Below are positions 3,382 through 14,882 of a DNA stretch of 20,745 nucleotides, in pieces; positions within the stretch are counted from its first letter, which is position 1; every line of letters begins with the position of its first letter. The notes under the pieces are model-generated. The model saw nothing but the letters and a program-made list of their open reading frames with translations, searched no databases and had not been told where the DNA came from. This stretch comes from a virus: positions 1 through 20,745 of the IMG/VR virus record IMGVR_UViG_3300031974_002286, one strand, 5' to 3'. The position numbers were made by a program, and so were the translations under genes.

Positions 3382-3417
3382 GTCATAGTAATATCCTATT
3401 TAGATTTTAAGTGTGTG

Positions 3418-3453
3418 AAGTGGCGTCATCATTGCGATGGCGTCATTTTTTTT
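3418..3453 (+). terminator. Rho-independent terminator of replication operon
   Basis: TGGCGTCATC (3421-3430) and GATGGCGTCA (3436-3445) pair over 10 bp with two G-T wobbles around the loop ATTGC. Flanking A/T extends the stem, and eight T residues follow. It separates the replication genes from the ribozyme operon. Confidence 0.85.
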
Positions 3454-3614: not shown

Positions 3615-4028
3615 ATGAAAAAATTTAAAGTTGACACATCGTGGTTAATTCTGACAGAACAAGAAAAACAAAACTTCAAGCCGCAAATGGTTCATTTTGA
3701 TTCATCAAACTACAATCAAATGCAATACAATCTCAACCGCTTGGTTGATGAACTTGAAGAAACCGGCAGATTGCAAATCCCCATTCGGGGCAAAGCACAT
3801 CCGACGAAGGTTGATATTTATCAATCGTTGTATTTCAAAATTCAGAACGTACCCACCCAAAGCGTAACTTCAATGAATACCGAAACCGGTAAATATGAAA
3901 TCACGGAAATTGATTCACATGACCGCGTTTTGATTTGGGATGAATACAACAGAAATCCGGGCATGAGTTCGGACGCGAAGCGAGCGTTGGAAAGCACACT
4001 TTCAAAGTGGGGCATTAAAACGTTCTAG
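3615..4028 (+). CDS. Hypothetical protein, first gene of ribozyme operon, 137 aa
   Basis: The frame is open from a TTG at 3582, but the ATG at 3615 is preferred: it follows AACCTTAATTTTT, which matches the AU-rich leaders of the other operon genes, and the TTG lies right beside the boxA-like motif. The product starts MKKFKVDTSWLIL and is soluble and mixed-charge, with no motif I recognise. Its conserved-looking middle (residues about 55-75, rich in Pro, Lys and Tyr) and Trp-containing C-terminus do not suggest a function. The TAG at 4026-4028 ends 7 bp before hammerhead ribozyme 1, whose cleavage would detach this mRNA from the rest. It is the only cistron in the operon not preceded by a ribozyme. 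Confidence 0.7.
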   Translation: MKKFKVDTSWLILTEQEKQNFKPQMVHFDSSNYNQMQYNLNRLVDELEETGRLQIPIRGKAHPTKVDIYQSLYFKIQNVPTQSVTSMNTETGKYEITEIDSHDRVLIWDEYNRNPGMSSDAKRALESTLSKWGIKTF

Positions 4029-4035
4029 TGTCGAA

Positions 4036-4092
4036 GTGTAATTGACAAGGGTTTAATACCCGAAACACCCGATTCGTTCGGGTGTCTTACAC
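4036..4092 (+). ncRNA. Hammerhead ribozyme 1 (type I, variant core)
   Basis: Stem I is GTGTAA/TTACAC (4036-4041 with 4087-4092). The core strand is TTGACAA (4042-4048), stem II is GGGT-TTAAT-ACCC (4049-4061), GAAA lies at 4062-4065, stem III is CACCCGA-TTCGT-TCGGGTG (4066-4084), and the cleavage triplet is GTC. Predicted cleavage falls after C4086, 24 nt before the next ATG. The normal CUGANGA core reads UUGACAA: positions 3 and 8 changed from C-G to U-A, keeping the catalytically needed 3-8 pair. An outer helix AGTGT/ACACT (4027-4031 with 4095-4099) may extend stem I beyond an internal loop. Activity may be reduced compared with the canonical copies. Confidence 0.8.
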
Positions 4093-4110
4093 AAACACTT
4101 AAATTTTCAA

Positions 4111-4179
4111 ATGAGTATAATAACAAACTTAATGGCTTGTTTGCTTCATGCAAAAGCCACGTTGGAAGTCATCAAATGA
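4111..4179 (+). CDS. Tiny hypothetical peptide, 22 aa
   Basis: The ATG sits 24 nt after the predicted cleavage site of ribozyme 1 and is preceded by the standard leader with AAACACTTAAATT, exactly like the larger genes of the operon. That context is the main reason to call it. The peptide starts MSIITNLMACLLHAKA and is fairly hydrophobic. Its TGA overlaps the ATG of a second tiny ORF (ATGA at 4176-4179). Either both are real coupled micro-genes, or the cassette holds a decayed or frameshifted gene. No function can be given. Confidence 0.4.
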   Translation: MSIITNLMACLLHAKATLEVIK

Positions 4180-4238
4180 ACGATAACCATTGCGAATCAC
4201 ATTTCGATGATGTAATAGTAAAACTGACGACGCTTTAA
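4176..4238 (+). CDS. Tiny hypothetical peptide, 20 aa, coupled to previous ORF
   Basis: Begins at the ATG of an ATGA overlap with the 22-residue ORF. It encodes a short polar, His/Asp-containing peptide (MNDNHCESHFDDVIVK) and ends at a TAA inside stem II of ribozyme 2. In the upstream ORF's frame, three stops (TAA TAG TAA) occur at 4213-4221, just before ribozyme 2, as if a longer gene originally ended there. This ORF could be a chance frame. Confidence 0.25.
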   Translation: MNDNHCESHFDDVIVKLTTL

Positions 4239-4272
4239 TAGCAGAAACACCCAACCAATGGGTGTCTTTTAC
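4218..4272 (+). ncRNA. Hammerhead ribozyme 2 (type I)
   Basis: Stem I is GTAAAA/TTTTAC (4218-4223 with 4267-4272). The core is the canonical CTGACGA (4224-4230). Stem II at 4231-4243 pairs GCU/AGC, but the closing 10.1-11.1 position is a C-A mismatch; its loop is TTAAT. GAAA is at 4244-4247. Stem III is CACCCA/TGGGTG, ending at G4264, followed by U-C. Predicted cleavage falls after C4266, 28 nt before the ATG at 4295. The downstream leader carries AAACACTTAAATT at 4273-4285. Confidence 0.85.
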
Positions 4273-4294: not shown

Positions 4295-4585
4295 ATGACG
4301 AAAACAAAAGAAAAATCAATGTACGAAGCATCACCCGACCACACAGAAATCAAGAACCACAAAATGATTGGTCGAACAATAAAAAAGTGGTGCTTTGGAT
4401 TGGAAGTTCTTGCAAAAGTGACCCGCGTTTGGGAAACACCTTATTCCATATCAATGGAAACAGAACACGAACCGGTAAGATACCGCGACGATTTTTTCAC
4501 CAAAGGTTCGGTGACTTTGCGAAAGTGTGATGGTTGGATTATTGGAACCGACCACCTAACGCCCGAAGATTTTTTGACAAAGTAA
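4295..4585 (+). CDS. Hypothetical protein, ribozyme operon, 96 aa
   Basis: The ATG at 4295 lies 28 nt downstream of the ribozyme 2 cleavage site, behind the conserved leader. A longer frame starting at 4258 overlaps the ribozyme in another phase and is not used. The protein starts MTKTKEKSMYEAS and has a central run rich in Trp, Phe, Val and Leu, then a probable beta-rich C-terminal half (RYRDDFF, DGWIIGTDHL). It looks like a small globular cytosolic protein; no family is recognised. Its TAA (4583-4585) lies inside the 5' strand of stem I of ribozyme 3, so a ribosome finishing this gene would sit on that ribozyme. Confidence 0.75.
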   Translation: MTKTKEKSMYEASPDHTEIKNHKMIGRTIKKWCFGLEVLAKVTRVWETPYSISMETEHEPVRYRDDFFTKGSVTLRKCDGWIIGTDHLTPEDFLTK

Positions 4586-4637
4586 AACTGATGAGTCTTA
4601 AATAGACGAAACACCCAAACATTTGGGTGTCTTTTAC
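4582..4637 (+). ncRNA. Hammerhead ribozyme 3 (type I, canonical)
   Basis: Stem I is GTAAAA/TTTTAC (4582-4587 with 4632-4637), the core is CTGATGA (4588-4594), stem II is GTCT-TAAAT-AGAC (4595-4607), GAAA is at 4608-4611, stem III is CACCCAAA-CA-TTTGGGTG (4612-4629), and U4630-C4631 completes the GTC triplet. Every conserved core nucleotide of a natural hammerhead is present. Predicted cleavage falls after C4631, 27 nt before the ATG at 4659. The stem III hairpin followed by T4 could be mistaken for a terminator. Confidence 0.93.
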
Positions 4638-4658: not shown

Positions 4659-5144
4659 ATGGGAAGAAAAACAGAAGTTAACATTTTCAATACAATCGTA
4701 AAACTTAACCTTTACGGATGGGATGCGGCACGAGAAATCATGTGGATGCTAGAAAAGAAATTCAAAAGTAGTAATCACGGCAAAACAGACTATTCATACC
4801 TATGTGAACGAATAGACGTTAAAGACATGCCGGACACTAATGAAGACATTTCAGAATATACCAAATTTTGGCGCGTGTATCGATGTACAAAAGAATGGTT
4901 AAATCTGCATCCGGACACCGAACCTAGTTTTTATCTAATAGGCGGCAACCCGGAATACGCGCATGAAATTATTCCGCTTTATATCGACGGCGAAATAGCT
5001 TATTCTTACGGGCAAAATTTGACCGACGCATGTTATGCGGCTTATCGTCAACTTTCGTTTAGTGCAAACCGCACAAGAATAAAGACGAAAAGGGAAGCAG
5101 AACTTCCGGAATTTGAAACGGTTGAAGCGAAAAAAGTAGTGTAA
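4659..5144 (+). CDS. Hypothetical protein, ribozyme operon, 161 aa
   Basis: The ATG follows the ribozyme 3 cleavage site by 27 nt, with the shared AU-rich leader. The product starts MGRKTEVNIFNTIVKLN and contains a helical N-terminal part, a central aromatic segment (TKFWRVYRCTKEWLNLHP) and a charged C-terminal tail (KTKREAELPEFETVEAKK). It is probably a soluble cytosolic protein. I do not recognise a family or an active site. The stop codon TAA is the last three bases of the 5' strand of stem I of ribozyme 4, so gene end and ribozyme share sequence. Confidence 0.75.
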   Translation: MGRKTEVNIFNTIVKLNLYGWDAAREIMWMLEKKFKSSNHGKTDYSYLCERIDVKDMPDTNEDISEYTKFWRVYRCTKEWLNLHPDTEPSFYLIGGNPEYAHEIIPLYIDGEIAYSYGQNLTDACYAAYRQLSFSANRTRIKTKREAELPEFETVEAKKVV

Positions 5145-5193
5145 CTGATGAGCCTTACAATAGGCGAAACACCCGGCAACGGGTGTCTTACAC
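5139..5193 (+). ncRNA. Hammerhead ribozyme 4 (type I, canonical)
   Basis: Stem I is GTGTAA/TTACAC (5139-5144 with 5188-5193), the core is CTGATGA (5145-5151), stem II is GCCT-TACAAT-AGGC (5152-5165), GAAA is at 5166-5169, stem III is CACCCG-GCAA-CGGGTG (5170-5185) with a GNRA tetraloop, and U5186-C5187 ends the GTC triplet. Predicted cleavage falls after C5187, 26 nt before the ATG at 5214. AAGT (5134-5137) can pair with ACTT (5198-5201) to form an outer stem I helix beyond an internal loop, which could support the loop contacts that make natural hammerheads fast. Confidence 0.93.
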
Positions 5194-5465: not shown

Positions 5466-5519
5466 GTTTAACTGATGAAGCCTAAATGGCAGAAACACCC
5501 GGCAACGGGTGTCTTAAAC
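5466..5519 (+). ncRNA. Hammerhead ribozyme 5 (type I)
   Basis: Stem I is GTTTAA/TTAAAC (5466-5471 with 5514-5519), a third version of this helix. The core is CTGATGA (5472-5478). Stem II pairs GCC/GGC within 5479-5491 with an A-A mismatch at 10.1-11.1 and a TAAAT loop. GAAA is at 5492-5495, stem III is CACCCG-GCAA-CGGGTG (5496-5511), and U5512-C5513 ends the GTC triplet. Predicted cleavage falls after C5513, 24 nt before the ATG at 5538. The conserved AAACACTTAAATT (5516-5528) overlaps the stem I 3' strand here. Confidence 0.85.
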
Positions 5520-5537: not shown

Positions 5538-6104
5538 ATGAGAAACAAAAACAAGGCTATGGAAGCCGACGCAAGAAAAAGAAGAATGCTACATTTTTTA
5601 AAAGGCAAAACCGCAAAGCAAAGAAATCGATATTTCAAAAGTATTGCAGATTTCGAAGCAAGTGAAATTGATTACAAAATCGAACACTACAACAAACCGG
5701 GTGCCGATGTAAGACGTACTTGGTTTAGAAACCGCGAAGAAGCCGTAAAATATTACGAAGAACGAAAGACGATGCTTCCAACGCTTATTTACAAGGCGAC
5801 GAAAGAAGGCGATGAATATTTTGACAACAAGTTGAAGTTCATGGTCAACAAGTTAGAATCGTTTGGACTACTTGAAGATGGTTGGGAAATTTCTGATTCA
5901 AATTTTAGCGTTTCGGAAGGTTTAGGACTTAACTTTTGGATTGAAGTTGCAAAGCAGACCGGAAAGATTTCAGAAGGCACCTATGAACGCGAAGAACGAC
6001 GCGTCTATGGTCGTTTAGTTTGGGTTGAGTGTTACGATAAGGTTTCACACTATCGTTTCATTGTGACTAACAAAAAGACAAATCACCACAAGCAGACCGC
6101 GTAA
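5538..6104 (+). CDS. Hypothetical protein, last gene of ribozyme operon, 188 aa
   Basis: The ATG lies 24 nt after the ribozyme 5 cleavage site. The N-terminus is strongly basic (residues 1-35, many Arg/Lys), which would suit nucleic-acid binding. It is followed by a helical charged region and a more compact domain with WEISDSNFSVSEGLG and RRVYGRLVWVECYDK. The final segment is basic and His-rich. I recognise no family. This is the longest gene of the operon and the only one not followed by a ribozyme; a strong terminator follows instead, so its mRNA would have a ribozyme-made 5' end and a normal terminated 3' end. Confidence 0.75.
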   Translation: MRNKNKAMEADARKRRMLHFLKGKTAKQRNRYFKSIADFEASEIDYKIEHYNKPGADVRRTWFRNREEAVKYYEERKTMLPTLIYKATKEGDEYFDNKLKFMVNKLESFGLLEDGWEISDSNFSVSEGLGLNFWIEVAKQTGKISEGTYEREERRVYGRLVWVECYDKVSHYRFIVTNKKTNHHKQTA

Positions 6105-7254: not shown

Positions 7255-7617
7255 ATGAAATCAACAAATCCGACAATTAAAAAAAAGGCGAAAATGATAA
7301 CGGCGTTGAATAAGTCACACGGCATCATCAAAACGGCTTGCGACGTGGTTGGGATTCATAGGTCAACGCATTATCAATGGCTAAAGGACGACCCCCAATA
7401 TCGGAAGGACGTTGAAATGGCATGTGAAAACGCAATCGACGACGTGGAAAAGAAATTGTTTGACCGAATAAACGCTGAAGACACAACTTCAATCATTTTC
7501 TACCTAAAGACCAAAGGCAAAAAACGCGGCTATGTTGAAAGGACGGAAGTTGAATCGTCCGGGTCATTGGAAACTTCGGTCAACTTTGTAGTTCACAAAG
7601 ACAAAAAAGATGATTGA
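7255..7617 (+). CDS. terS: Terminase small subunit
   Basis: A 120-residue protein directly upstream of the large terminase subunit. Its N-terminal half has a helix-turn-helix of the kind found in small terminases (GIIKTACDVVGIHRSTHYQW, where the recognition helix follows a short turn), then a helical oligomerisation region and a variable tail. TerS recognises the phage packaging site and loads TerL. The ATG at 7255 is chosen because the -7 promoter box ends at 7249; an upstream in-frame start would lie within the terminator. The 3' end overlaps terL by 8 bp. Confidence 0.8.
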   Translation: MKSTNPTIKKKAKMITALNKSHGIIKTACDVVGIHRSTHYQWLKDDPQYRKDVEMACENAIDDVEKKLFDRINAEDTTSIIFYLKTKGKKRGYVERTEVESSGSLETSVNFVVHKDKKDD

Positions 7618-8770
7618 AATCAATTGCAATGTGCAGTTTGAGCAACTTCTTAAATCAAACAAACGATTCAAAGTCCATCAAGGTGGAACAAGGTCGGGAA
7701 AGACTTTCGCCATTTGTCAGTATTTGACCTACTTGATTAGGACTTCGGACAAGCCTTTGACCATTTCGATTATACGAAAGACGCTTCCGGCTTTAAAGGG
7801 GTCAGTTATGCGCGATATGGTGAAGGTTCTGACAGACGCGAACATGTACCATCAATGCGTTCATAACAAGGCGGAAAACACCATCCAATTTGGCAAGCAT
7901 TTGATTGAGTTCCTTTCGATTGACCAACCGCAAAAAATCCGTGGTCGCGGTCGTTCGATTGCGTTCTTGAATGAAAGCAATGAATTGGATTTGGAAGACT
8001 TCCGACAAATCAACATGAGAACCCGCGACTTTGTGATTATCGACTTCAACCCGTCCGACCCGGTTCATTGGTTATACAACGAAGTGATTCCGCGCGAAGA
8101 TTGCGACACATGGATAACCACATACAAAGACAACAAATTCTTGCAACCGGAACTTGTGCGCGAAATCGAACGAATGCGGGAACGTGACCCGGACTTTTGG
8201 CGTGTTTATGGTGAAGGTCAACGGGCGTTTTTCAGTAAGCGACAAATATTTTCCGGATGGAAGTTTATTCCAAAAGAAGACTTTCCCGAATTGGACAATC
8301 CGACGATTGGCATTGACTTCGGATTTGCCAATGACCCAACCGCCATTTTGATTGGTCAACGAATCAACGGGGTGGTGTACATTCACGAACTTATGTATAA
8401 GACCGGACAAACAAATCAAGACATTGCCGATTTTCTACATGCGAACCAACTCAATGATGTTTTGGCTTATGCAGATAGTGCCGAACCCAAGTCAATTGTT
8501 GAGTTGCGACAAATGGGTTGCTTGGTGAAGGAATGCAAAAAAGGTCAAGGGTCAATCAATGCCGGTATTTCGTTAATAAAGGAATATGACGTTGTGGTTT
8601 CGCTTGAATCAAAGAACATGCAAACGGAATACAATTCCTATTATTGGGAACAACTGAAGGACGGCACGATTATCAACAAACCGGTAGACAAAATGAATCA
8701 TTTGTGTGACGCGTTTCGTTACATGTTTTATTCACAATATTCAGCACGAAACGAATTTTTCGTCATTTAG
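7610..8770 (+). CDS. terL: Terminase large subunit (packaging ATPase-nuclease)
   Basis: A 386-residue packaging motor. The ATPase domain has Walker A GGTRSGKT at 25-32, and a Walker B region FLNESNEL near 118-125. The nuclease domain begins with IGIDFGFANDPTA near residue 233, continues with YADSAEPKS near 286 and ends with NHLCDAFRYMFY near 362. These supply the acidic residues of the RNase H-like active site. The length is slightly short but typical of PBSX/Terminase_3-like enzymes. It cuts concatemeric DNA and drives it through the portal. The gene overlaps terS by 8 bp and is followed 24 bp later by the portal gene. Confidence 0.93.
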   Translation: MIEINCNVQFEQLLKSNKRFKVHQGGTRSGKTFAICQYLTYLIRTSDKPLTISIIRKTLPALKGSVMRDMVKVLTDANMYHQCVHNKAENTIQFGKHLIEFLSIDQPQKIRGRGRSIAFLNESNELDLEDFRQINMRTRDFVIIDFNPSDPVHWLYNEVIPREDCDTWITTYKDNKFLQPELVREIERMRERDPDFWRVYGEGQRAFFSKRQIFSGWKFIPKEDFPELDNPTIGIDFGFANDPTAILIGQRINGVVYIHELMYKTGQTNQDIADFLHANQLNDVLAYADSAEPKSIVELRQMGCLVKECKKGQGSINAGISLIKEYDVVVSLESKNMQTEYNSYYWEQLKDGTIINKPVDKMNHLCDAFRYMFYSQYSARNEFFVI

Positions 8771-8794: not shown

Positions 8795-10510
8795 ATGGCG
8801 TCAATATTAGAACGATTAAAATCAATCATCAACAAGTCACAACAAACACATCCATCATTCAATCAAGCGGTTTACAACTACCTTGGCAATTCGGTAATTT
8901 GGAACCCCGAAAATGATGACACATTCATCAACAAAGGCTATCGACACAATGCGACAGTTTATTCAATCATCAACTTGATTAGCAAGTCAGCGACAACGAT
9001 TCCTTTGTGCATTTATGAAGTGAAAAAAGAAACCGAACTAAAAAGGTATAAAGCATTGACGTCTTCGGGCATTGACGGGGAAACATTGCATCGTTCTAAT
9101 TACATCAAAAAGAACGCCTTGGTCGAAGTGGAAGACACCGAACTTCATGAACTTTTAAGTCGACCAAACCCGGCGCAGTCATTCAATTCGTTTTTGGCTG
9201 AAATCATTGCGTTTCATTCCATCACGGGGAATTCATACGTCTACGGAATCAAACCGGAAACCGGCGCAAACAAACACAAGTATGTCGAATTGTATGTGTT
9301 GCCGTCGCAGAATGTCGAAATCAATTCCGGTGGAATCATGCAACCGGTCAAGGAATACACTTTGACATACAACGGCACTTATCGAATGCCGGCGGAATGC
9401 GTTCTTCACATGAAAGATTTTAACCCATATTATGACGGCACCGGTTCACACCTTTACGGCATGTCGCCACTAAAGGCGGGATTGCGTTCAATGGACGCAA
9501 ACAATGAAGCGTTAACGGCGGGCGTGAAGTACTTGCAGAACGGAACCGCGCGGGGGATGTTGGTTGCGGATGAAGGTGATTTGAATGAAGTGCAAGCGCG
9601 CCAACTAAAAGACAAGTTTAGGGAACAACACCAAGGCGCGAACAATATGGGCGATGTCATCATCACACCGAAAAAATTGTCATGGGTCAACTTTGGATTG
9701 TCCGCGTCTGACTTGACTTTAATTGAGCAGTACGGGCAAACAATCAAAGACTTGTGCAACATTTACAACGTGCCGGTGCAACTACTAAACAACACCGAAT
9801 CGTCGACCTACAACAACATGAAAGAAGCCAAAAAAGCATTGTACCAAAACGCGGTAATTCCGAAAATGACAATGTTGCGCGATGAACTCAACCGATGGTT
9901 GGTTCCGCATTATGGTGACAAGTTGTATTTGGACTTTGACTTTTCAGTCATTCCCGAATTGCAAGAAGAAAGCGACAAGGTGGTAAATCAAATGTCGGCG
10001 GCTTGGTGGCTTACACCAAATGAAAAACGTGCCGCGATGAATTACGGACTAGACGACGACACTTCCGAAATGAATGACTACTATATTCCGGCAAACTTTT
10101 TGCCGCTAAAGAACGAACCAAACTATCAAGAAATTGACATTTTGGAATCCAATGGCGGGTTGGCTGAAATGGAAAAGTCAGAACAGACATACAACGACTA
10201 CCCGCAGACGGCAACCAATAACGCCAAGCGAATGTTGGAATGGCGTGAAAAGTATGGTCGTGATGTGGTTCAAGGGGGGACGATGACCGGGTGGCGTCGT
10301 GCATCGCAATTGGCGTCCCGCGAAAATATCACCTTGGCAACGGTCAAGCGCGTTTATTCATTCCTAAAAAGACACGAAGACAACGCAACCATTGACCCAA
10401 AATATAAGGGTGAACCATGGCGTGACCGCGGGTATGTGGCTTACAACCTTTGGGGTGGTGCCGCAATGTTACCATGGGCGGAAAGAACAATCAAGAAAAG
10501 CGAAGAATAA
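8795..10510 (+). CDS. HK97-type portal protein with extra C-terminal domain
   Basis: Residues 1 to about 445 match HK97-family portals: an N-terminal helix-rich part with SIINLISKSATTIPLCIYE, a central stem/crown region, and the helical NIYNVPVQLLNNTESSTYNN segment that typically precedes the long clip/stem helices. Portals form the dodecameric channel at one capsid vertex through which DNA enters and leaves. At 571 residues it is longer than HK97 portal (about 420). The surplus, from about residue 465, is a separate domain starting near YPQTATNNAKRMLEWREKYG and ending with a Trp/Gly-rich part (YNLWGGAAMLPWAE). I have seen this kind of domain attached to phage head proteins, but cannot name its function. 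Confidence 0.9.
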   Translation: MASILERLKSIINKSQQTHPSFNQAVYNYLGNSVIWNPENDDTFINKGYRHNATVYSIINLISKSATTIPLCIYEVKKETELKRYKALTSSGIDGETLHRSNYIKKNALVEVEDTELHELLSRPNPAQSFNSFLAEIIAFHSITGNSYVYGIKPETGANKHKYVELYVLPSQNVEINSGGIMQPVKEYTLTYNGTYRMPAECVLHMKDFNPYYDGTGSHLYGMSPLKAGLRSMDANNEALTAGVKYLQNGTARGMLVADEGDLNEVQARQLKDKFREQHQGANNMGDVIITPKKLSWVNFGLSASDLTLIEQYGQTIKDLCNIYNVPVQLLNNTESSTYNNMKEAKKALYQNAVIPKMTMLRDELNRWLVPHYGDKLYLDFDFSVIPELQEESDKVVNQMSAAWWLTPNEKRAAMNYGLDDDTSEMNDYYIPANFLPLKNEPNYQEIDILESNGGLAEMEKSEQTYNDYPQTATNNAKRMLEWREKYGRDVVQGGTMTGWRRASQLASRENITLATVKRVYSFLKRHEDNATIDPKYKGEPWRDRGYVAYNLWGGAAMLPWAERTIKKSEE

Positions 10511-13667: not shown

Positions 13668-14882
13668 GTGCAAGAAGAAATCAAAAAGCAACTTGACCAA
13701 ATCGGGGATTTGGTAGATGCTAAAATCGAAAAAGCGGCGGGACAAATTAAAGACAACGCCAAAGGTGAAATGGATGAGGTTTTGAAGTCAGAAATTTCAA
13801 ACCTTACAAATCAATATTTAGAAACAACAAAAAGAATCGACGAAATGGAAGTTGCAAACAAAAAGCAATTTTCAAACAAGCCAATGTCATTCAAAGGTTC
13901 TTTACAACAAGCATTTGCAGACGGTGCAATCGATTCATTACAAAAAGGAAATGCATCAAGAACGGCATTTGAGGTAAAAGCGGACGACATGGTTATGACG
14001 TCACCGGGTGCCGGTCAAGTAGCGGCTTATTCGGGTGTTGTTGCGGCTGAAACAATTGTACCACAATTCAAGTTCGACCCATCAAGAAAAGTTCACGTTC
14101 GTGAGTTTTTACCGATTGGAACGACAGACGCGCAAACAATTAGATTCCCAAAAGAATCGGCTTACGAAGACAATTCAGCGGCAACCGCTCAAGGTGCGGC
14201 ATTAACAAAGTCAGACTTCGAAATCACCGCTACATCGGTGAACGTGGAAAAGATTGGAACATTCATGACCTTAACGGACGAAATGCTTCAAGACACACCA
14301 CAATTGACGTCTTACTTATCGGCGCGTGTACCGGAAAAAGTTCTTTCGGAAGAAGACGACCAAATTTTAAATGGTAACGGAACGGCACCAAACCTTTCGG
14401 GATTATTCACGGACGGCGCAGTATTTTCAGACACGGCGGCGGGAATTGGAACTGTTACAAGCGCAAACGAATATGACGTTTTAGTTGTTGCATTGGCACA
14501 ACTTGCGGCGTCAAATTACCAAGCGTCTGCCATCATGTTGAATCCCGCAGATATGCACAAAATCGCGTTGCTTAAATCATCGCAAAACGAATATTTAAGA
14601 CAACAACTTTATTCGGGTCTACAACCGCAAATCATGGGTGTGAACATCATTCAAAACACGGCAGTAACCGCGGGGAACTTTATTTTAGGTGATTTCAATC
14701 AAGCGACACAATTATGGGTTCGTGAAAACCTTTCAATTGAGTTTGCGCGTGAGCATGCTTCAAACTTCACTTCAAACATGGTAACCGTCCGCGTTCAAGA
14801 ACGCGTTGCGTTAACAAACTACCAACCGAATGCAATTGTTCGTGGTGTATTCAGCACGGCAATCTTGGCATTAGGTTCATAA
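13668..14882 (+). CDS. HK97-fold major capsid protein
   Basis: A 404-residue capsid subunit starting at GTG 13668 (no ATG nearby; the upstream stop is 2 bp away). Residues 1 to about 65 form a charged coiled coil, the delta/scaffold domain expected to be removed by the protease. A Gly/Ala-rich segment near 108-125 and IGTTDAQTIRFPKES lead into the HK97 core. The P-loop and A-domain elements include DGAVFSDTAAG, IMLNPADMHKIALLK and FILGDFNQATQLWVRENLS. The C-terminus ends in the beta-strand NMVTVRVQERVALT typical of the family. It forms the icosahedral shell. A strong terminator follows, as expected for a highly expressed gene. Confidence 0.93.
   Translation: MQEEIKKQLDQIGDLVDAKIEKAAGQIKDNAKGEMDEVLKSEISNLTNQYLETTKRIDEMEVANKKQFSNKPMSFKGSLQQAFADGAIDSLQKGNASRTAFEVKADDMVMTSPGAGQVAAYSGVVAAETIVPQFKFDPSRKVHVREFLPIGTTDAQTIRFPKESAYEDNSAATAQGAALTKSDFEITATSVNVEKIGTFMTLTDEMLQDTPQLTSYLSARVPEKVLSEEDDQILNGNGTAPNLSGLFTDGAVFSDTAAGIGTVTSANEYDVLVVALAQLAASNYQASAIMLNPADMHKIALLKSSQNEYLRQQLYSGLQPQIMGVNIIQNTAVTAGNFILGDFNQATQLWVRENLSIEFAREHASNFTSNMVTVRVQERVALTNYQPNAIVRGVFSTAILALGS

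Follow-up and report, generated by a model that had tools for sequence, protein, structure and literature searches.

A putative type I hammerhead ribozyme with a U3-A8 core pair in a five-copy array of a viral genome

The IMG/VR virus record IMGVR_UViG_3300031974_002286, analysed here over a window of 20,745 nucleotides (the whole stretch of DNA under study), carries an array of five hammerhead ribozymes, starting at positions 4036, 4218, 4582, 5139 and 5466, among small and mostly unknown genes. The first of them departs from the hammerhead consensus at core positions 3 and 8, which raises the question of whether it is an ordinary ribozyme, one whose rate has been adjusted, a copy that is being lost or a sequence kept for some other role. 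Judging from the sequence and its predicted fold, we give a probability of about 0.78 to the first reading, namely that in ribozyme 1 selection has kept a true type I hammerhead, whose core pair drifted to U3-A8 and which would fold and cut like its four sisters.

Anatomy and fold of ribozyme 1

Direct reading of the sequence places a type I hammerhead at 4036-4092, with the sequence GUGUAA-UUGACAA-GGGU(UUAAU)ACCC-GAA-ACACCCGA(UUCGU)UCGGGUGU-C-UUACAC. It has the architecture of type I members, with three stems arranged round the core and entry through open stem I; stems I, II and III have 6, 4 and 8 bp, respectively. Its parts are the following:

4036-4041, plus strand: 5' strand of stem I (GUGUAA), pairing with 4087-4092
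4042-4048, plus strand: variant core strand U3 U4 G5 A6 C7 A8 A9 (UUGACAA), with U3 at 4042 and A8 at 4047
4049-4061, plus strand: stem-loop II, GGGU(UUAAU)ACCC, whose loop has the U-n-A-R-U form characteristic of the phage subfamily (from the fold and the loop consensus)
4062-4064, plus strand: G12 A13 A14, read directly
4065-4085, plus strand: stem-loop III, from the A15.1-U16.1 pair to the loop; predicted 3'-terminal hairpin of the upstream product (from the fold and the covariance model R1)
4086, plus strand: C17, with the predicted cut between 4086 and 4087, as placed by the hammerhead model
4087-4092, plus strand: 3' strand of stem I (UUACAC); predicted start of the downstream product (from the fold and R1)

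Compared with the list of core positions that define a hammerhead (C3 U4 G5 A6 N7 G8 A9, G12 A13 A14, A15.1-U16.1 and H17), ribozyme 1 has all but C3 and G8, with A15.1 at 4065, U16.1 at 4085 and C17 at 4086. The two departures, C3 to U (4042) and G8 to A (4047), give a paired U3-A8 within an otherwise intact hammerhead. The initial annotation had described a UUGACAA core in which C3-G8 became U3-A8 while the remaining core and the three stems were intact, and this description stands: the 3-8 pair is precisely what the changes affect, it remains Watson-Crick, and the rest is borne out by the reading, the fold and the R1 score.

The minimum-energy fold of ribozyme 1 (-22.9 kcal/mol, z = -3.2) coincides with the hammerhead structure and has the lowest energy among the five copies of the array. 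With 100 nt of flank added, stem I reached a probability of 0.61 as against 0.06-0.41 in the other copies. The UUAAU of loop II, the putative partner of stem I in a tertiary contact, fits the U-n-A-R-U consensus of the subfamily (alignment A2).

The core strand contains TTGACA at 4042-4047, an exact match to the consensus of the sigma-70 -35 hexamer, and UUGACAA might thus have been kept as part of a promoter or as a coding strand. However, no promoter-like pair was called there and no -10-like hexamer was found 16-18 nt downstream, so that the promoter role is rejected for lack of its partner hexamer. A coding constraint on the core strand is rejected as well, since the 137-aa upstream frame stops at 4028 and, on the plus strand, 4042-4048 is free of ORFs of at least 20 aa; a 42-aa minus-strand frame with a TTG start does cross these positions, without support. 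Another role for this strand is hence scarcely credible.

Recognition by an independent model

The training set of the covariance model R1 comprised 20 C3-G8 hammerheads from other phages in IMG/VR and no sequence of the window. This model of independent members nevertheless recognised ribozyme 1 as a type I hammerhead, matching exactly 4036-4092, the same limits as in the initial annotation, with 56.6 bits and an E value of about 1e-18. With filters off, R1 found exactly the five hammerheads of the window, the best match outside them scoring 9.6 bits. The canonical motif pattern matched four times in the window versus 0.26 expected from shuffles, and these four matches together with the variant make up the array.

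Searches against Rfam gave matches of ribozyme 3 to Hammerhead_1 (RF00163, E 7e-4) and of ribozyme 4 to Hammerhead_HH9 (RF02275, E 0.0026), both below the gathering score, and listed no match for ribozymes 1, 2 and 5; none of the five copies reached the gathering threshold. Since the canonical copies 3 and 4, to which the likeness to these two families is limited, also fall below it, the shortfall reflects the Rfam models and not the U3-A8 variant, the gathering threshold being a database cut-off and no defining property of a hammerhead.

The array and its genes

The array lies between a replication module (primase/helicase, 1305-2981) and a packaging module, and is bracketed by two terminator-like hairpins, the first of them at 3417-3449. 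The features that surround ribozyme 1 are listed below, with R1 scores for the ribozymes:

3615-4028, plus strand: gene of 137 aa before ribozyme 1, without family match and with a stop codon a short way 5' of stem I
4087-4110, plus strand: leader of the predicted downstream RNA after ribozyme 1, UUACACAAACACUUAAAUUUUCAA followed by AUG
4111-4179, plus strand: putative tiny ORF of 22 aa after ribozyme 1
4218-4272, plus strand: ribozyme 2, 59.8 bits; canonical C3-G8, C.A mismatch at 10.1/11.1
4295-4585, plus strand: gene of 96 aa between ribozymes 2 and 3, no known family
4582-4637, plus strand: ribozyme 3, canonical, 69.4 bits
4659-5144, plus strand: gene of 161 aa between ribozymes 3 and 4, no known family, with its stop in stem I of ribozyme 4
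5139-5193, plus strand: ribozyme 4, canonical, 60.6 bits
5214-5465, plus strand: gene of 83 aa between ribozymes 4 and 5, no known family
5466-5519, plus strand: ribozyme 5, 60.3 bits; canonical C3-G8, A.A mismatch at 10.1/11.1
5538-6104, plus strand: final gene of the array, 188 aa, with one weak match to Flavobacterium phage vB_FspS_tant8-1
6119-6138, plus strand: terminator-like hairpin, probable end of the array transcript
7610-8770, 8795-10510 and 13668-14882: TerL, portal and major head protein of the packaging module

The array is marked by a common signature, the leader ACAAACACTTAAATT together with a CACCC/GGGTG stem. The core of the leader, AAACACUUAAAUU, follows all five ribozymes, with an ATG 24-28 nt past C17. 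The array genes had no match in PHROGs and gave only sub-threshold matches in Pfam.

Ribozymes 2 and 5 deviate at 10.1/11.1, a point that the initial annotation omitted, which leaves copies 3 and 4 as the only fully canonical ones. Elsewhere among the hammerheads of the fetched loci this pair is G-C in 139 of 145 cases and U.U, U.C or C.C in the remainder; the C.A and A.A of ribozymes 2 and 5 are absent from this set. Comparison of the five copies revealed double changes that preserve pairs, the 3-8 pair among them.

At ribozymes 3 and 4, stem I (4582-4587 and 5139-5144, respectively) contains the stop codon of the preceding gene, and a ribosome terminating there could interfere with folding of the ribozyme.

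Frequency of the U3-A8 pair

A structural descriptor applied to 3.53 Mb of fetched viral DNA returned 142 unique strict hammerheads, of which 141 had C3-G8 and one, ribozyme 1, had U3-A8, a frequency that is partly conditioned by the fact that the sample was chosen in part by the CTGANGA pattern; the reversed-sequence control gave no hammerhead. In a core-free scan, none of the 31 unique hammerhead-like matches had U3-A8: 29 showed the complete C3-G8 consensus core, one read CCGATGA, which is still C3-G8 with U4 changed, and one read TTGAATA in a doubtful structure.

When TTGANAA was sought in combination with a CACC/GGTG stem III, which limits detection to hammerheads of that kind, no further convincing case of U3-A8 emerged in IMG/VR (62 loose-pattern stretches, none of them a variant-core hammerhead) or in 84,980 prokaryote genomes (34 stretches). 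Several viral loci (such as L149, L195, L196 and L241) were rejected as U3-A8 copies, being canonical hammerheads with TTGANAA in loop II or upstream, and one prokaryotic locus (L429), marginal in that its stem I needs G-U pairs, is in all likelihood a chance match. The single-change cores U3-G8 (35 stretches) and C3-A8 (19 stretches) yielded no genuine variant once the structure filter had been applied. U3-A8 is rare among hammerheads.

Such rarity might mean that copy 1 is in early decay, on its way to losing function, and that its two changes arose by chance. The otherwise near-invariant core, with C3-G8 in all 141 other strict hammerheads, is consistent with this, and the further deviations in the array hint at relaxed constraint. 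However, both changes fall on a single core pair and restore its pairing, an outcome of only 3 of the 324 double substitutions in the nine-position core (0.9%); all stem pairs are intact, R1 scores the copy well above background and none of its four sisters folds more stably. We consider early decay very unlikely.

Other altered cores were met in the course of these scans. The CCGATGA core (U4 to C) occurs in hammerheads that are otherwise intact at L148 (4249-4307, minus strand), L091 (1222-1280, minus strand) and L143 (2035-2093, minus strand), representing at least two distinct sequences. Locus L092 (4680-4750, plus strand) has a hammerhead-like stretch with a loop II-like TTAAATAG and a CACCC stem III, but its core is broken, and it may represent a copy that has decayed.

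Proposed cleavage and the effect of the 3-8 change

According to our preferred reading, that of a functional hammerhead with a drifted pair, the change from C3-G8 to U3-A8 probably had a U3-G8 wobble as its intermediate step. On the phage RNA, ribozyme 1 would adopt the hammerhead fold and, as its motif suggests, cut after C4086, thereby parting the 137-aa upstream gene from the remaining transcript. At the 3' end of the upstream product, the hairpin of stem III would be followed by a 2',3'-cyclic phosphate, and the downstream product would begin with a 5'-OH and the AU-rich leader common to the five units. Cutting of one long transcript during its synthesis at all five sites would convert it into short mRNAs with uniform ends.

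The initial annotation spoke of ribozyme 1 as releasing the first gene, which needs correction as to the gene concerned. The gene predicted to be freed by this ribozyme is the upstream 137-aa ORF (3615-4028), whereas the RNA expected between cuts 1 and 2 (4087-4266) has 180 nt and only tiny ORFs, of 22 aa and 33 aa. The 33-aa ORF (4137-4238) has a TTG start and stops inside ribozyme 2. The segment could represent a very small gene, the remnant of a gene or a small RNA.

Position 8 of the hammerhead is thought to act via its ribose 2'-OH. As A8 retains this group, the chemistry by itself gives no reason to expect an inactive ribozyme, and given that the general-acid 2'-OH and the 3-8 pair are both kept, the exchange is most probably close to neutral or causes a modest slowing. 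The role of the G8 2'-OH as general acid has been described (PMC6155905).

The initial annotation implied that a natural U3-A8 copy would be new, which is not the case. Perreault et al. (2011, PMC3088659) report natural covariation from C3-G8 to U3-A8 in hammerheads and state, by citation, that covariation at 3-8 is compatible with activity in vitro. The same paper reports phage regions with multiple hammerheads that were cleaved in vitro, one cluster also in E. coli cells. With natural U3-A8 and phage hammerhead clusters both described there, the central claim made here is without novelty. On the other hand, pairwise mutagenesis of a type III hammerhead in 2023, assayed during transcription, found strong rescue at 3-8 by the G-C swap only, the remaining double mutants of the motif having low activity (PMC9901934), and on these rescue data U3-A8 could be slow. 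The two studies pointing in opposite directions, the rate of a U3-A8 ribozyme depends on context, and a slower ribozyme, one of the two options of the initial annotation, may still apply; the other option, a different set-point for gene release, is unsupported here because the literature on 3-8 activity points both ways.

Were U3-A8 to slow ribozyme 1, the first junction would be cut later or less fully, leaving the upstream gene partly joined to the downstream RNA and setting their relative dose. Besides the low activity of 3-8 changes other than G-C in the type III construct, this is favoured by the mismatches of ribozymes 2 and 5, which would make a series of graded copies, and by the greater frequency of core or 10.1/11.1 deviations in the array than in the comparison set (3 of 5 copies versus about 10 of 150, a post hoc count). 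Against it stand the in vitro activity of covarying hammerheads stated by Perreault et al. and the uniform leader and stable fold, which suggest ordinary processing. A tuned ribozyme 1 therefore seems unlikely to us. Extended to the whole array, with U3-A8 in copy 1, mismatches in copies 2 and 5 and canonical copies 3 and 4, the idea would be that graded variants give each junction its own cleavage rate and thereby set mRNA dose without regulators; this is a post hoc grouping of five copies, and we regard it as distinctly improbable. The deviations in three of the five copies could alternatively be caused by relaxed selection.

Under the preferred reading of a functional hammerhead, ribozyme 1 is a clean natural covariation within the catalytic pair, and its four sisters on one transcript offer internal controls. 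Such a copy may help to decide if U3-A8 is nearly neutral, as the statement on activity in PMC3088659 suggests, or strongly slowing, as the type III mutagenesis suggests.

Relatives and other hammerhead systems

The named records nearest to the terminase of the window phage are Bacteroidota phages, and terminase relatives in IMG/VR share 63-72% identity. No hammerhead was found in these relatives by Rfam (nine loci), and R1 over 80 loci gave chance-level matches only, so that the array looks like an accessory region. For the two array genes that were tested no relative was found in IMG/VR, and the search of the array genes against named phages gave one weak partial match only, to the last gene.

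Ribozyme 1 resembles the natural U3-A8 hammerheads of Perreault et al. (PMC3088659) in ribozyme class and in the covariation from C3-G8 to U3-A8. The clustered phage and prophage hammerheads of that paper (Figure 3) are comparable in that several close-set hammerheads flank single genes of varied function; the window array differs from them in having five type I copies with a common stem III and 3' leader that adjoin unknown genes. Type I hammerheads of IMG/VR phages (for example L149, L158, L323 and L331), 20 of which went into R1, share with ribozyme 1 the 6-bp stem I, the U-n-A-R-U loop II, the CACC stem III and the array habit, but every one found has C3-G8.

The array adds to the evidence for hammerhead arrays between small genes in many uncultured phages. 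Arrays with at least three copies between genes were seen in many of them, for example at L309, L331, L323, L095/L104, L141/L155/L157 and L158, and in some the stem and loop sequences are repeated.
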